From positions 124,001-188,000 of the forward strand of contig NZ_UOOB01000001.1 of the NCBI RefSeq assembly GCF_900564145.1: 64,000 nt of DNA. Reading direction: 5' to 3'. The position numbers and the translations under genes are program-made. The stretch comes from Comamonas sp. lk (lineage in GTDB: Bacteria; Pseudomonadota; Gammaproteobacteria; Burkholderiales; Burkholderiaceae_C). Shown one piece after another: positions 32,626-39,990 of the stretch. Each line of letters starts with the position of its first letter. Position 1 is the stretch's first letter. The notes under the pieces are model-generated. The model did no database searches, was not told the DNA's origin, and saw nothing but the letters and a program-made list of their open reading frames with translations.

Positions 32626-33609
32626 TTACTCAATTGCGACTTTGCCCTCTTTCACAAGCTTCGAAAACTTCTGGGTCTCTTCACTAATCTGCTTGGCCAT
32701 CTGCTCTGGAGTATTACCGATGGGCTCGGCACCAATCTCTTCCATCTTCTTGTGGAATTCCGGCGAGTGGATGATTTTTGCCATCTCAGTATTGAGCTTC
32801 GTCACCACGTCCTTGGGCGTCCCTGCAGGTGCCAGAACTCCAAACCAGGTGCCCAGGTTGAAGCCTTTTAGACCAGCTTCGTCCAGAGTCGGTACATCGG
32901 GAAGCGCTGGTGAGCGCTTGTCTGTGGTGATAGCCAACGCGGTCAGTTTGCCCGCTTTGATGTGGGGAAGCACCGGCGTGATGGTGTCGAATGACATCGA
33001 AATTTGCCCACCGAGCAAGTCGGTTGCCAACGGGCCGCTGCCCTTGTAGGGCACATGCAGAAGCTGCGCTCCCGTCATGTTCCCAAACTGGGTGCCAATC
33101 AGGTGCTGAGCCGTGCCATTTCCGTTGGAGCCATAGCTCAGCTTACCTGGCTGGGCTTTCGCTAACGCTACGAGCTCAGCCACATTCTTGGCAGGAACAC
33201 GGGGATTAACAACCAAGACATTCGGAACCATCGCGATAACTGTGATGGGGGCGAAGTCTTTCTGGAAATCGTAAGTAAGCTTCGGGTAGACACTCGTCGC
33301 AATCGTGTGATGTACCGCGCCAATTAGCAGTGTGTAGCCGTCGGCCTTGGACTTGGCGACCATGTTTGCACCCAGAGTGGCTCCCACACCAGGTCTGTTG
33401 TCCACGATGACTGGTTGACCCCAGCTGCGCGAAAGGCGCTCGCCAAGCGTACGTGCCAGCACATCGGTGGTTCCGCCTGCTGGGAACGGCACGATGAGGG
33501 TGATAGGCTTGCTCGGGAAGCTCTGCGCGATGGCTCCAGTACTGGAAAGTACTGCTGCCATGGCAATAGCTGGCAAGAACTTGATGCGGAAGGTACGCTT
33601 GTTGCTCAT
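32626..33609 (-). CDS. Bug/TctC-type periplasmic substrate-binding protein
   Basis: A 327-residue periplasmic receptor of the tripartite tricarboxylate transporter (TTT) class. A signal peptide (about 1-28, cut after AIA) is followed by the Bug hallmark FPSKPITLIVPFPAGGTTDVLAR and by VDNRPGVGATLGANMVAKS. These proteins bind small carboxylates or other polar organics. AGGAG precedes the ATG. It is the last gene of the tartrate-like operon, separated from eno by about 150 bases with a strong hairpin. No TctA or TctB membrane genes are in the window, so it is an orphan receptor that may work with distant permeases. Confidence 0.92.
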   Translation of the reverse strand: MSNKRTFRIKFLPAIAMAAVLSSTGAIAQSFPSKPITLIVPFPAGGTTDVLARTLGERLSRSWGQPVIVDNRPGVGATLGANMVAKSKADGYTLLIGAVHHTIATSVYPKLTYDFQKDFAPITVIAMVPNVLVVNPRVPAKNVAELVALAKAQPGKLSYGSNGNGTAQHLIGTQFGNMTGAQLLHVPYKGSGPLATDLLGGQISMSFDTITPVLPHIKAGKLTALAITTDKRSPALPDVPTLDEAGLKGFNLGTWFGVLAPAGTPKDVVTKLNTEMAKIIHSPEFHKKMEEIGAEPIGNTPEQMAKQISEETQKFSKLVKEGKVAIE

Positions 33610-33720
33610 GCTTGTCTCCTATTTACTTATGAAACAGACTCTATGGCCCGTTGAGGGAAGAACTCGCTGTCCGGGTGAATGCATGGTTAACTCAGATTCA
33701 ACAGTGGCAGCAGTTCCGGG

Positions 33721-33749
33721 TAGGCATGTCACCGTGGGTGACATGCCTA
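33721..33749 (-). promoter_or_regulatory. perfect 13-bp stem-loop between eno and the Bug gene
   Basis: TAGGCATGTCACC (33721-33733) and GGTGACATGCCTA (33737-33749) with a three-base loop, 12 bases beyond the eno stop. There is no T-run, so it may protect the upstream or downstream message or act as a weak attenuator. Confidence 0.7.
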
Positions 33750-33761
33750 AACACGAGCGGA

Positions 33762-35045
33762 TTACCTAAGTTGTCGAATAGATGAGCGCCCAGCGAAGGT
33801 AGCAGCGGCTCCGAGCTCGCTCTCTATGAGTAGCAGGCGGTTGTACTTAGCCATGCGGTCTGACCGGCACAGAGACCCCGTCTTGATTTGGGTTGCGGCC
33901 GTACAGACGCTCAAATCCGCGATAGTGGTGTCTTCCGTTTCTCCAGAGCGGTGCGAGACCACAGACGCAAAGCCGGCACGCTCCGCCATGTCGATAGCGG
34001 CCAGCGTTTCGGTCAGAGTGCCAATCTGGTTTGGCTTGATAAGGATGGCGTTCGCAGCGCTGCGCTCAATCCCCTGACGCAGAATCTCGGTGTTGGTGAC
34101 GAACAGGTCATCACCAACCAATTGCACCTTTTTCCCAAGCTTGGCAGTCAGTAGCTCCCAACCCGTCCAATCACCCTCCGCCATACCGTCTTCAATGGTG
34201 ACGATGGGATAGCTGTCCACCCAATGGCCGAGAAAATCTGCGAATTGCTCCGAGCTGAACTGCTTACCCTCTGATGCCAGCTTGTAGACGCCCGAGGAGA
34301 AAAACTCCGAGCTAGCAACATCAAGGCCCAAGGCAATGTCGTTTCCTGCGTTGAAGCCTGCCAACCCGATAGCCTCCAGAATGACTTCAATCGCAGCCTC
34401 GTTGGAAGGTAGGTCGGGGGCGAATCCACCCTCATCTCCGACAGCGGTCGACAGGCCTCGCTTCTTGAGGATTCCCTTCAGCGCATGAAACACCTCTACG
34501 CCCCAGCGCATGGATTCTCCAAAGTTGGGAGCCCCAACGGGAAGAATCATGAACTCCTGCATGTCCACGCTGTTGTCTGCGTGTGCGCCCCCGTTGATGA
34601 TGTTCATCATGGGCATAGGCAGTCTGGGCGAGCGGCCGTTCGCGAGGTGGCGGTATAGCGGCTCGCCTGCTGAAGCGGCGGCGGCATGGGCGGCTGCGAG
34701 CGACACGGACAGCAGCGCGTTGGCGCCAAGCTTGCCCTTGTTGGGCGTTCCGTCAGCCTCAATCATGAGCCGGTCAATGTTCGCTTGGTCACGTGCATCC
34801 TGTCCAACCAGCACGCGATTCAGCTCTTCGCTAACGTGCGACACGGCCTTGGTGACGCCTTTGCCGCCGTAGCGCTTGGAGTCACCGTCGCGCAGTTCAA
34901 TGGCCTCACGTGAACCGGTCGACGCCCCGGATGGTGCAGCCGCAAATCCGCGCTTACCATCAGACAGTACGACTTCAGCGGCCACCGTTGGATTGCCCCG
35001 CGAATCCAGTATCTCGAATCCAGAGATGCTCTGTATCACTACCAT
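33762..35045 (-). CDS. eno: enolase (operon-borne)
   Basis: A 427-residue enolase that turns 2-phosphoglycerate into phosphoenolpyruvate. Family motifs are complete: [32 protein letters not shown], the metal Asp/Glu in [14 protein letters not shown] and VGDDLFVTN, catalytic Lys in [13 protein letters not shown], and [15 protein letters not shown]. The ATG at 35045 has GAGG in front; a longer frame to 35120 lies within pyruvate kinase and is not supported. It starts seven bases after the pyruvate kinase gene. As most proteobacteria keep eno near pyrG, this may be a second, pathway-specific copy (inference). Confidence 0.95.
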
Positions 35046-38960: not shown

Positions 38961-39013
38961 AAGGGTCTCCGATAGGTTGTCGATGAGTGACTGTATGCAC
39001 TTCAAAGCCTAGA

Positions 39014-39032
39014 ATTCACCCTTCAAGTGAAT
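39014..39032. promoter_or_regulatory. candidate LysR operator
   Basis: ATTCAC, seven bases, GTGAAT forms a dyad of the T-N11-A kind bound by LysR-type regulators. It lies in the 121-base divergent gap between the tartrate dehydrogenase-like gene and the LysR gene. Confidence 0.55.
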
Positions 39033-39081
39033 CCATTGTTTACTTCAAGCTAACTATCTTTCGGCCTCATTCAAGGGAAAT

Positions 39082-39990
39082 ATGACTGCCTCCATCCAGC
39101 CTGCTGACCTTGGTTTCTTCTCTGTTCTCGCTGGCGCAGGCAGTCTGAGCGCTGCAGCACGAGAGCTGGGCATTACGACGCCCGCCGTCAGCAAGCACCT
39201 TGCGCTGATGGAGAGCAGACTGAACACGGCACTCGTCATCCGGACAACAAGGCGCATGAGTCTGACCCCTGAGGGTGAGGTGTACCTAGAGCATGCTCGT
39301 CGCATCCTGGGTGAGATTGACAATATGGAGCACCTGCTAGGCCAGGGCAAAGCCACGCCAAAGGGGCTATTGCGGGTGAATGCGACATTGGGCTTTGGCC
39401 GTACGCACGTATCGCCGCTCATATCCAAGTTTGTACGCAAGCATCCTCAGGTAGAAGTGCAGCTTCAACTTTCGGTGAACCCGCCCGCGTTGACAGACGA
39501 CTCTTTCGATGTGTGTATTCGATTCGGCCCACCGCCAGACGCAAGAATTATTGCCAAACGCATTGCACCAAATCGCCGTCTGCTGTGTGCATCGCCTGCT
39601 TACCTCGCGGCACATGGGACTCCCAAAGTACCCAATGACCTAAATAAACACAACTGCATTGGTATTCGCCAAGGTGAAGAGGCCTATGGCGTGTGGCGGC
39701 TCACCAGTGGACGCGGAGGAAGCGCGACGGTTGACACCATAAAGACACGAGGGAACCTCACAACAAACGACGGAGAAATTGCCGTGAATTGGGCCTTGGA
39801 CGGGCACGGTATCTTGATGCGCGCCGAATGGGATATTGAGCGGTACCTACGTAGCGGCCGTCTCGTTCAAGTGCTTCCGCAATGGCACACACCAGATGCC
39901 GATATTTACGCGGTATATCCGCAGCGTCACCAACTGGCCACTCGCGTCCAGGCGTTCGTGGAGTATGTAACCCAGGCATTCAAACGATAG
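39082..39990 (+). CDS. LysR-family regulator of the tartrate-like operon
   Basis: A 302-residue regulator with an N-terminal winged helix-turn-helix (LSAAARELGITTPAVSKHLALMESRL, shown by its core GITTPAVSKHLALME) and a C-terminal effector domain (about 90-300). It belongs to the DsdC/AaeR-like group with RVNATLGFGRTHVSPLI. It is divergent from the catabolic operon with one dyad between, the usual place of a pathway regulator such as TtuA. Its DNA appears clearly lower in GC than the replication genes to the right. Confidence 0.9.
   Translation: MTASIQPADLGFFSVLAGAGSLSAAARELGITTPAVSKHLALMESRLNTALVIRTTRRMSLTPEGEVYLEHARRILGEIDNMEHLLGQGKATPKGLLRVNATLGFGRTHVSPLISKFVRKHPQVEVQLQLSVNPPALTDDSFDVCIRFGPPPDARIIAKRIAPNRRLLCASPAYLAAHGTPKVPNDLNKHNCIGIRQGEEAYGVWRLTSGRGGSATVDTIKTRGNLTTNDGEIAVNWALDGHGILMRAEWDIERYLRSGRLVQVLPQWHTPDADIYAVYPQRHQLATRVQAFVEYVTQAFKR

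Follow-up and report, generated by a model that had tools for sequence, protein, structure and literature searches.

Organization of the operon

A window of 64,000 nucleotides from Comamonas sp. lk (contig NZ_UOOB01000001.1, positions 124,001 to 188,000) was analysed around six genes at window positions 32626 to 39990. Five of them are on the minus strand in the order TtuC-type tartrate dehydrogenase (TTC), MOFRL glycerate 2-kinase, pyruvate kinase (pyk), enolase (eno) and Bug/TctC receptor, and a LysR gene is divergent from them. Family models confirmed all six genes, with the order and coordinates of the initial annotation of this DNA. The features are as follows.

39082..39990, plus strand: LysR-type regulator (Pfam HTH_1/LysR_substrate; best NCBIfam model TtdR, 209 bits, under the 398-bit cut-off)
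37890..38960, minus strand: TtuC-type tartrate dehydrogenase/decarboxylase (TIGR02089, 550 bits, cut-off 470; substrate helix WGLRLKICQGFDQY)
36472..37779, minus strand: class II (MOFRL) glycerate 2-kinase, TtuD-like (Pfam DUF4147 and MOFRL)
35053..36471, minus strand: pyruvate kinase, TtuE-like (PRK06247, 705 bits, cut-off 623)
33762..35045, minus strand: second, operon-type enolase (TIGR01060, 633 bits, cut-off 300; Pfam N- and C-terminal domains)
33721..33749, no strand assigned: perfect 13-bp hairpin with a 3-base loop in the eno-Bug spacer (fold z -3.75)
32626..33609, minus strand: orphan Bug/TctC periplasmic binding protein (PF03401)

We read this locus, with a probability of about 0.78, as an inducible tartrate catabolic operon of the Agrobacterium vitis ttu/TAR kind that has been extended by an enolase. 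The gene order is not a product of chance, since dehydrogenase-kinase-pyk-eno recurs in at least ten other loci (nine in the locus comparison, one of them with a contig-split dehydrogenase, and one Paracoccus plasmid).

The kinase and pyruvate kinase genes abut each other and a gap of 7 bases separates pyruvate kinase from enolase. The dehydrogenase gene starts with GTG, with an alternative TTG at 39005 being possible, and the enolase start listed at 35120 is an upstream TTG. For the kinase, a start at 37758 has, by eye, a better looking ribosome site than the start at 37779. The kinase matches the solved putative glycerate kinase 2b8n (E 1.5e-78), and both NCBIfam glycerate 2-kinase models match it below their own cut-offs. 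A LysR gene of like kind adjoins the dehydrogenase gene in relatives too, and the window LysR is a probable tartrate-responsive activator. A promoter scan found one site where 3.0 were expected.

The hairpin at 33721-33749 has no T run and was not listed by the terminator scan; it may keep expression of the Bug receptor gene lower than, or separate from, that of the other genes. In the 110-base spacer between TTC and kinase, an imperfect inverted repeat of 20 bp and a CGGCCGC/GCGGCCG hairpin lie at 37782-37837; a DctA or MFS gene occupies this spacer in 9 of the 16 relatives carrying TTC and pyk.

Distribution of the operon

The order was searched for in samples of 53 genomes of the genus and 399 genomes of the family. 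In the genus, a TTC orthologue (at least 83% identity) is present in 10 of the 53 genomes, some enolase in 51 and an operon-type eno in one, which is the window's own. For the family, thresholds of E 1e-178 for eno, 1e-130 for TTC and 1e-165 for pyk were applied and weaker matches were not counted, giving the TTC clade in 105, this pyk type in 44 and eno in 15 of the 399 genomes. Linkage was paired by hand from contig coordinates; genome G182, in which a contig end splits the TTC gene, was included among the linked ones. TTC is linked to pyk in 11 genomes, five of which have eno as well. Among the other ten genomes with an eno match, pyk-eno is present without TTC on the available stretch in seven (G120, a short contig, G137, G226, G249, G303, G367 and G424), and no such pyk was found in three.

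A pyk scan of named genomes, for which the best 80 loci were listed, revealed TTC together with pyk in at least 12 and eno right after pyk in at least five of these, namely Cupriavidus sp. IDO, a Herminiimonas metagenome-assembled genome (MAG), a plasmid of Variovorax sp. WS11, a Thiomonas MAG and Cupriavidus laharis. Rhodoferax-type loci have the same order, again with eno. The seven listed TTC and pyk loci without eno vary: no MOFRL kinase is shown in one (L043) and the order differs in two (L093 and L106). Four further loci (L117 to L120), chosen for their eno, belong to genomes of other genera and also have TTC-kinase-pyk-eno, with homologues of the dehydrogenase, kinase, pyruvate kinase and enolase lying together at 77-90% identity; the TTC gene of L118 is cut by a contig end. 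The locus of Cupriavidus laharis LMG 23992 (L111) has the window's own order, LysR / TTC-kinase-pyk-eno-Bug, at 68-87% protein identity; neither DctA nor MFS lies in its operon, and an MFS gene is found just beyond LysR. Shorter versions are present on plasmids of Paraburkholderia caledonica (TTC-kinase-pyk-MFS, without eno) and Bradyrhizobium sp. 62B (MFS-TTC-kinase). A unique invention in this genome was rejected, as the same order recurs elsewhere.

Related genes also occur in other surroundings. Two genus loci (L129 and L130) have TTC-Bug adjoining a MOFRL kinase and glyoxylate carboligase cluster. In Pseudorhodoferax-type loci (L049, L050, L122, L123 and L124; L049 and L122 probably represent one place, as do L050 and L123) pyk-eno of the same clade directly follows a GFO/IDH/MocA oxidoreductase gene, and neither TTC nor MOFRL kinase was found there by tblastn; in L050 the genes upstream of pyk-eno also include one for an SDR and what by eye is a TRAP-like transporter. 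Locus L047 (3137-10741) reads glyoxylate carboligase (gcl) - tartronate semialdehyde reductase (tsr) - MOFRL kinase - pyk - eno, so an enolase has been added in a glycerate pathway as well. A conjugative plasmid of Cupriavidus taiwanensis (L168) carries a cluster of pyk, NADP-dependent glyceraldehyde-3-phosphate dehydrogenase, ppc and eno, with an isocitrate/isopropylmalate dehydrogenase-family gene and one for a tripartite receptor close by, and on a plasmid of Azospirillum sp. TSH58 (L170) an enolase gene lies beside the genes for pflB, acetate kinase and phosphate acetyltransferase.

Operon enolase and its housekeeping counterpart

The window enolase is a full-length, two-domain protein whose catalytic segments, as defined by the residue roles known for enolases, are intact in an alignment with the solved enolase 3h8a. 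It is predicted to be a catalytically equipped enolase (EC 4.2.1.11). A search for a second eno and pyk elsewhere in the genome, proposed along with the initial annotation, located both: a pyrG-linked housekeeping enolase at C1:1454882, 61-62% identical to the operon enolase, and a pyruvate kinase at C1:97188, 41% identical to that of the operon. The possibility that the operon replaces a missing housekeeping eno or pyk was therefore rejected. The operon genes are extra isozymes which duplicate central steps and are not the cell's only copies, and since housekeeping copies exist the operon enolase and pyruvate kinase are probably not essential.

These copies bear on two earlier proposals. The route had been described as self-contained, which does not agree with the lack of a permease in the operon or with a genome that already has a housekeeping eno and a second pyk. 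An incomplete glycolysis in Comamonas-type bacteria had been offered as the reason for the added enolase; all 46 good-quality genus genomes have an enolase, this genome has its second pyk, and the operon is also present in Cupriavidus, Variovorax and Paracoccus, all of which speaks against that explanation.

The origin of the enolase was examined in a midpoint-rooted tree of 48 sequences (46 different), none of them a Cupriavidus housekeeping enolase. The window enolase falls in a clade of 24 rows (support 100/99), apart from a group of 13 rows (100/97) that holds the housekeeping enolases of the genus, including the genome's own. This tree, together with 57-64% identity to other genus enolases, led us to reject an in-genus duplication of the housekeeping eno. 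Comamonas thiooxydans is the named source of an enolase 95% identical to the operon copy. In all 19 clade rows with genomic context, many of them found via pyk or eno, eno directly follows pyk; the other five rows are database proteins without context.

A different enolase occupies the same position in Paracoccus. The plasmid of Paracoccus pantotrophus ACCC10489 (L159) has LysR / TTC-kinase-pyk-eno in the same order as the window, with no Bug gene in the row, an SLC13 permease nearby and IS21 genes downstream; its LysR is 34% identical to that of the window over 131 residues. In the tree the L159 enolase nests inside the Paracoccus enolases, and it is 93.6-95.5% identical to the enolases of five large Paracoccus replicons. 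Where annotated, the latter are not part of an operon of this kind; that of P. ferrooxidans sits between obgE/YdiU and citramalate synthase/cysS genes. Within this genus the operon is found as TTC-kinase (P. ferrooxidans, P. versutus), TTC-kinase-pyk (P. yeei, two records) and TTC-kinase-pyk-eno (P. pantotrophus). Because the Paracoccus copy belongs to the Paracoccus enolases and the Burkholderiales copies form one clade, the tree indicates at least two separate additions of enolase to this operon. Cupriavidus pinatubonensis may represent a third recruitment: its kinase gene is divergent from LysR-pyk-eno and its enolase falls among the housekeeping ones in the tree. Three genus genomes, G001 (locus L133), G002 and G051, have yet another, divergent enolase, 57% identical to the window copy; the L133 sequence forms a very long branch, and its position next to Paracoccus is uncertain.

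The seven pyk-eno pairs without TTC raise the question whether enolase, with or without pyruvate kinase, is a passenger, that is, part of a mobile pyk-eno pair hitching onto catabolic operons without helping growth on tartrate. The existence of housekeeping eno and pyk would fit this, as would A. vitis ttuE, a tartrate-inducible pyruvate kinase reported as seemingly non-essential in PMC4811896. However, the catalytic segments are intact, the genes are tightly spaced, eno follows pyk in every contextualised clade row, and two separate enolase origins led to the same operon position. We therefore regard idle passengers as rather improbable; as they would be compatible with a tartrate operon, this possibility overlaps with our preferred explanation and the odds of the readings do not sum to one.

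Composition and insertion site

A low GC content of the locus had been taken as a hint of acquisition. The operon genes do have a lower GC content (55.5-60.4%) than 76 other open reading frames (62.4 +/- 2.4%), a background selected by third-position GC in which some frames may not be real genes. However, the codon usage of the operon is ordinary (24th to 74th percentile), so the hint stands as a weak one, and a strong compositional signature of recent transfer was not found in the GC and codon-usage test. Horizontal gain of the operon is suggested by the single operon-type eno among the 53 genus genomes and by the clustered homologues of 77-90% identity in four genomes of other genera.

The next genes, named by eye, are gyrB and dnaN at 40318-44184. 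In seven genus genomes (L148 to L153 and L155), about 15 kb downstream of gyrB were compared with the open reading frames at 10-42 kb of the window, and no shared genes were found beyond the gyrB end; an eighth gyrB stretch (L154, 1400 bases) was too short for comparison. The junction beside the origin region (window 40000-40318) is a lineage-specific break. Elsewhere in the window, at 21832-27775, FHA-domain, PP2C phosphatase, two TerC and succinyl-CoA-ligase-like genes are present upstream of genes that appear by eye to be cytochrome c-like.

Dehydrogenase type and predicted pathway

The window dehydrogenase belongs to the same TIGR02089-type family as the solved enzyme 3flk/3fmx of Pseudomonas putida, and much of the sequence aligns. 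The two differ in the substrate helix, where 3flk/3fmx has LLKFRREFDQY and the window enzyme has LRLKICQGFDQY. A pattern search identified WGLRL(K/P/A)ICQ(G/P)(F/L)DQY in 40 loci, some of which overlap and so represent fewer genes, and the 3flk-type WGSLLKFRREFDQY in three; alignments agree with this search on the two helix types. The residue aligned with the arginine of 3flk and 1w0d is Cys95 in the window enzyme, and Arg91 (356-aa form) is located four residues before it, one helical turn away. We take the arginine position to be that of Arg94 of isopropylmalate dehydrogenase, which binds the substrate carboxylate. A second TIGR02089 dehydrogenase of this genome, 46% identical to the window TTC, matches 3flk with 592 bits, as compared to 343 bits for the window enzyme. 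TIGR02089 joins two dehydrogenase types with different substrate helices, both present in this genome, and is therefore a trap for annotation.

The window helix motif is shared by the dehydrogenase of pAtS4c, a plasmid of Allorhizobium ampelinum S4, and is for this reason compatible with tartrate, the probable substrate. The isomer preference of the window enzyme may differ from that of 3flk.

In the proposed pathway, LysR would sense tartrate and turn on TtuC-kinase-Pyk-Eno-Bug, and the Bug protein would bind periplasmic tartrate and pass it to a permease encoded elsewhere. TtuC would oxidize, decarboxylate and reduce tartrate at a single NAD site, giving D-glycerate and CO2, which is the reaction type of the 3flk enzyme. 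The MOFRL kinase would then phosphorylate D-glycerate to 2-phosphoglycerate at the cost of one ATP, the operon enolase would form phosphoenolpyruvate (PEP), and the operon pyruvate kinase would yield pyruvate and regain one ATP, so that the spent ATP is recovered and there is no net redox change. One cluster is thus predicted to encode every enzyme from tartrate to pyruvate. The locus raises a testable question, namely why an operon would include a central glycolytic enzyme of which the cell already possesses another copy. The enolase and pyruvate kinase isozymes would raise lower-glycolytic capacity in step with tartrate supply, and the benefit is most likely this extra capacity under tartrate and not independence from central metabolism.

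As a tentative proposal, which we rate somewhat short of an even chance, the operon may have been extended stepwise down lower glycolysis, from TTC-kinase by addition of pyk and then eno, with eno recruited independently twice and the housekeeping enolase limiting flux when glycerate enters below 3-phosphoglycerate; in the same proposal the TtuC clade forms an enzyme type of its own, with its arginine moved by one helical turn and a preference among tartrate isomers unlike that of 3flk. The natural versions with and without eno in one genus, as in Paracoccus and Cupriavidus, provide a ready comparison.

Several observations weigh against a tartrate operon. The substrate-helix arginine of the 3flk type is not kept in the window enzyme. 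In 94 of the 105 family genomes with TTC, some of them contig-split, no link to this pyk type is shown; as TTC is linked to pyk in only 11, it needs no such partners and may serve another 2-hydroxyacid. On an Antarctobacter plasmid (L174), two dehydrogenase genes are accompanied by a TRAP transporter but not by a glycerate kinase. Uptake is a further difficulty: among the 16 TTC and pyk loci in the 100 compared, 12 have a DctA or MFS permease (DctA in eight, MFS inside the operon in one and at its end in three), and the window copy has only an orphan receptor. The MFS proteins of these relatives match a galactonate-transporter model below its cut-off and no tartrate-specific model. No permease gene is present among the six genes, where a Bug receptor is found in place of the TtuB transporter. 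The LysR of the window and the regulator of pAtS4c are not orthologues (27% identity over 99 residues). Finally, according to PMC9219206, two A. vitis-group strains in which no TAR region was found still produced alkali from tartrate, which implies that other tartrate routes exist.

The uptake points can be qualified to some extent. None of the three query permeases lies inside the operon in four of the 16 loci (L042, L093, L106 and L111), and in both the window and C. laharis the operon ends with the Bug gene. DctA is a C4-dicarboxylate permease, so its presence in half of these loci fits a C4-dicarboxylate substrate. No TctA membrane subunit lies beside the window TctC receptor (TctB was not searched for); the two TctA genes of the genome, at C1:1171939 and C1:1559601, are about 1 Mb or more from the Bug gene.

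The unlinked TTC genes would also be expected if the dehydrogenase were mainly a D-malate dehydrogenase, or acted on another 2R-hydroxyacid, and gave pyruvate directly, with kinase, Pyk and Eno serving D-glycerate from elsewhere and being merely co-regulated. Lone LysR-TTC or LysR-TTC-Bug loci (L127, L128 and L162) and the Antarctobacter arrangement point the same way, and tartrate and D-malate activities are grouped under one KEGG number in a table of PMC8307300. However, the window enzyme shares 71% identity and the substrate helix with the pAtS4c dehydrogenase, the direct linkage to glycerate 2-kinase is repeated in alpha- and betaproteobacteria, and the genome encodes a second dehydrogenase that closely resembles 3flk. 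We consider a D-malate enzyme unlikely.

That the cluster serves a general glycerate/glyoxylate pathway instead of tartrate is a reading suggested by L047, where a related eno ends a gcl-tsr-kinase-pyk row. The window cluster has TTC and neither gcl nor tsr, and a gcl-tsr cluster elsewhere in this genome (L134) has its own MOFRL kinase, 61% identical to that of the window, which makes this reading highly improbable.

Comparison with the tartrate operons of Allorhizobium vitis

The closest described counterpart of the tartrate operon proposed here is on pAtS4c, named as carrier of a TAR-IV region in PMC9219206. Its genes are arranged as LysR / MFS - tartrate dehydrogenase - glycerate kinase - pyk. 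The shared genes follow the same order in the window, with identities of 71% for the dehydrogenase, 55% for the kinase and 53% for Pyk. The differences lie at the ends: in pAtS4c an MFS transporter gene precedes that of the dehydrogenase and enolase is missing, whereas the window operon lacks a permease and includes eno and a Bug receptor. Enolase is absent from the operon in all three A. vitis-group records examined (L160, L161 and L175), and a search of open-access texts (titles and abstract starts) found no description of an enolase in a tartrate operon.

In PMC2063504, TtuD is argued to be a glycerate kinase and not a hydroxypyruvate reductase. The Pseudomonas glyoxylate carboligase cluster of the same source likewise has a MOFRL kinase beside pyruvate kinase. 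That cluster is fed by glyoxylate, and neither a tartrate dehydrogenase nor eno is named in the passage that describes it. Taken together, the comparison supports the view, already put forward in the initial annotation, that the window carries an operon of the A. vitis ttu type in which an added enolase would fill the step from 2-phosphoglycerate to PEP.

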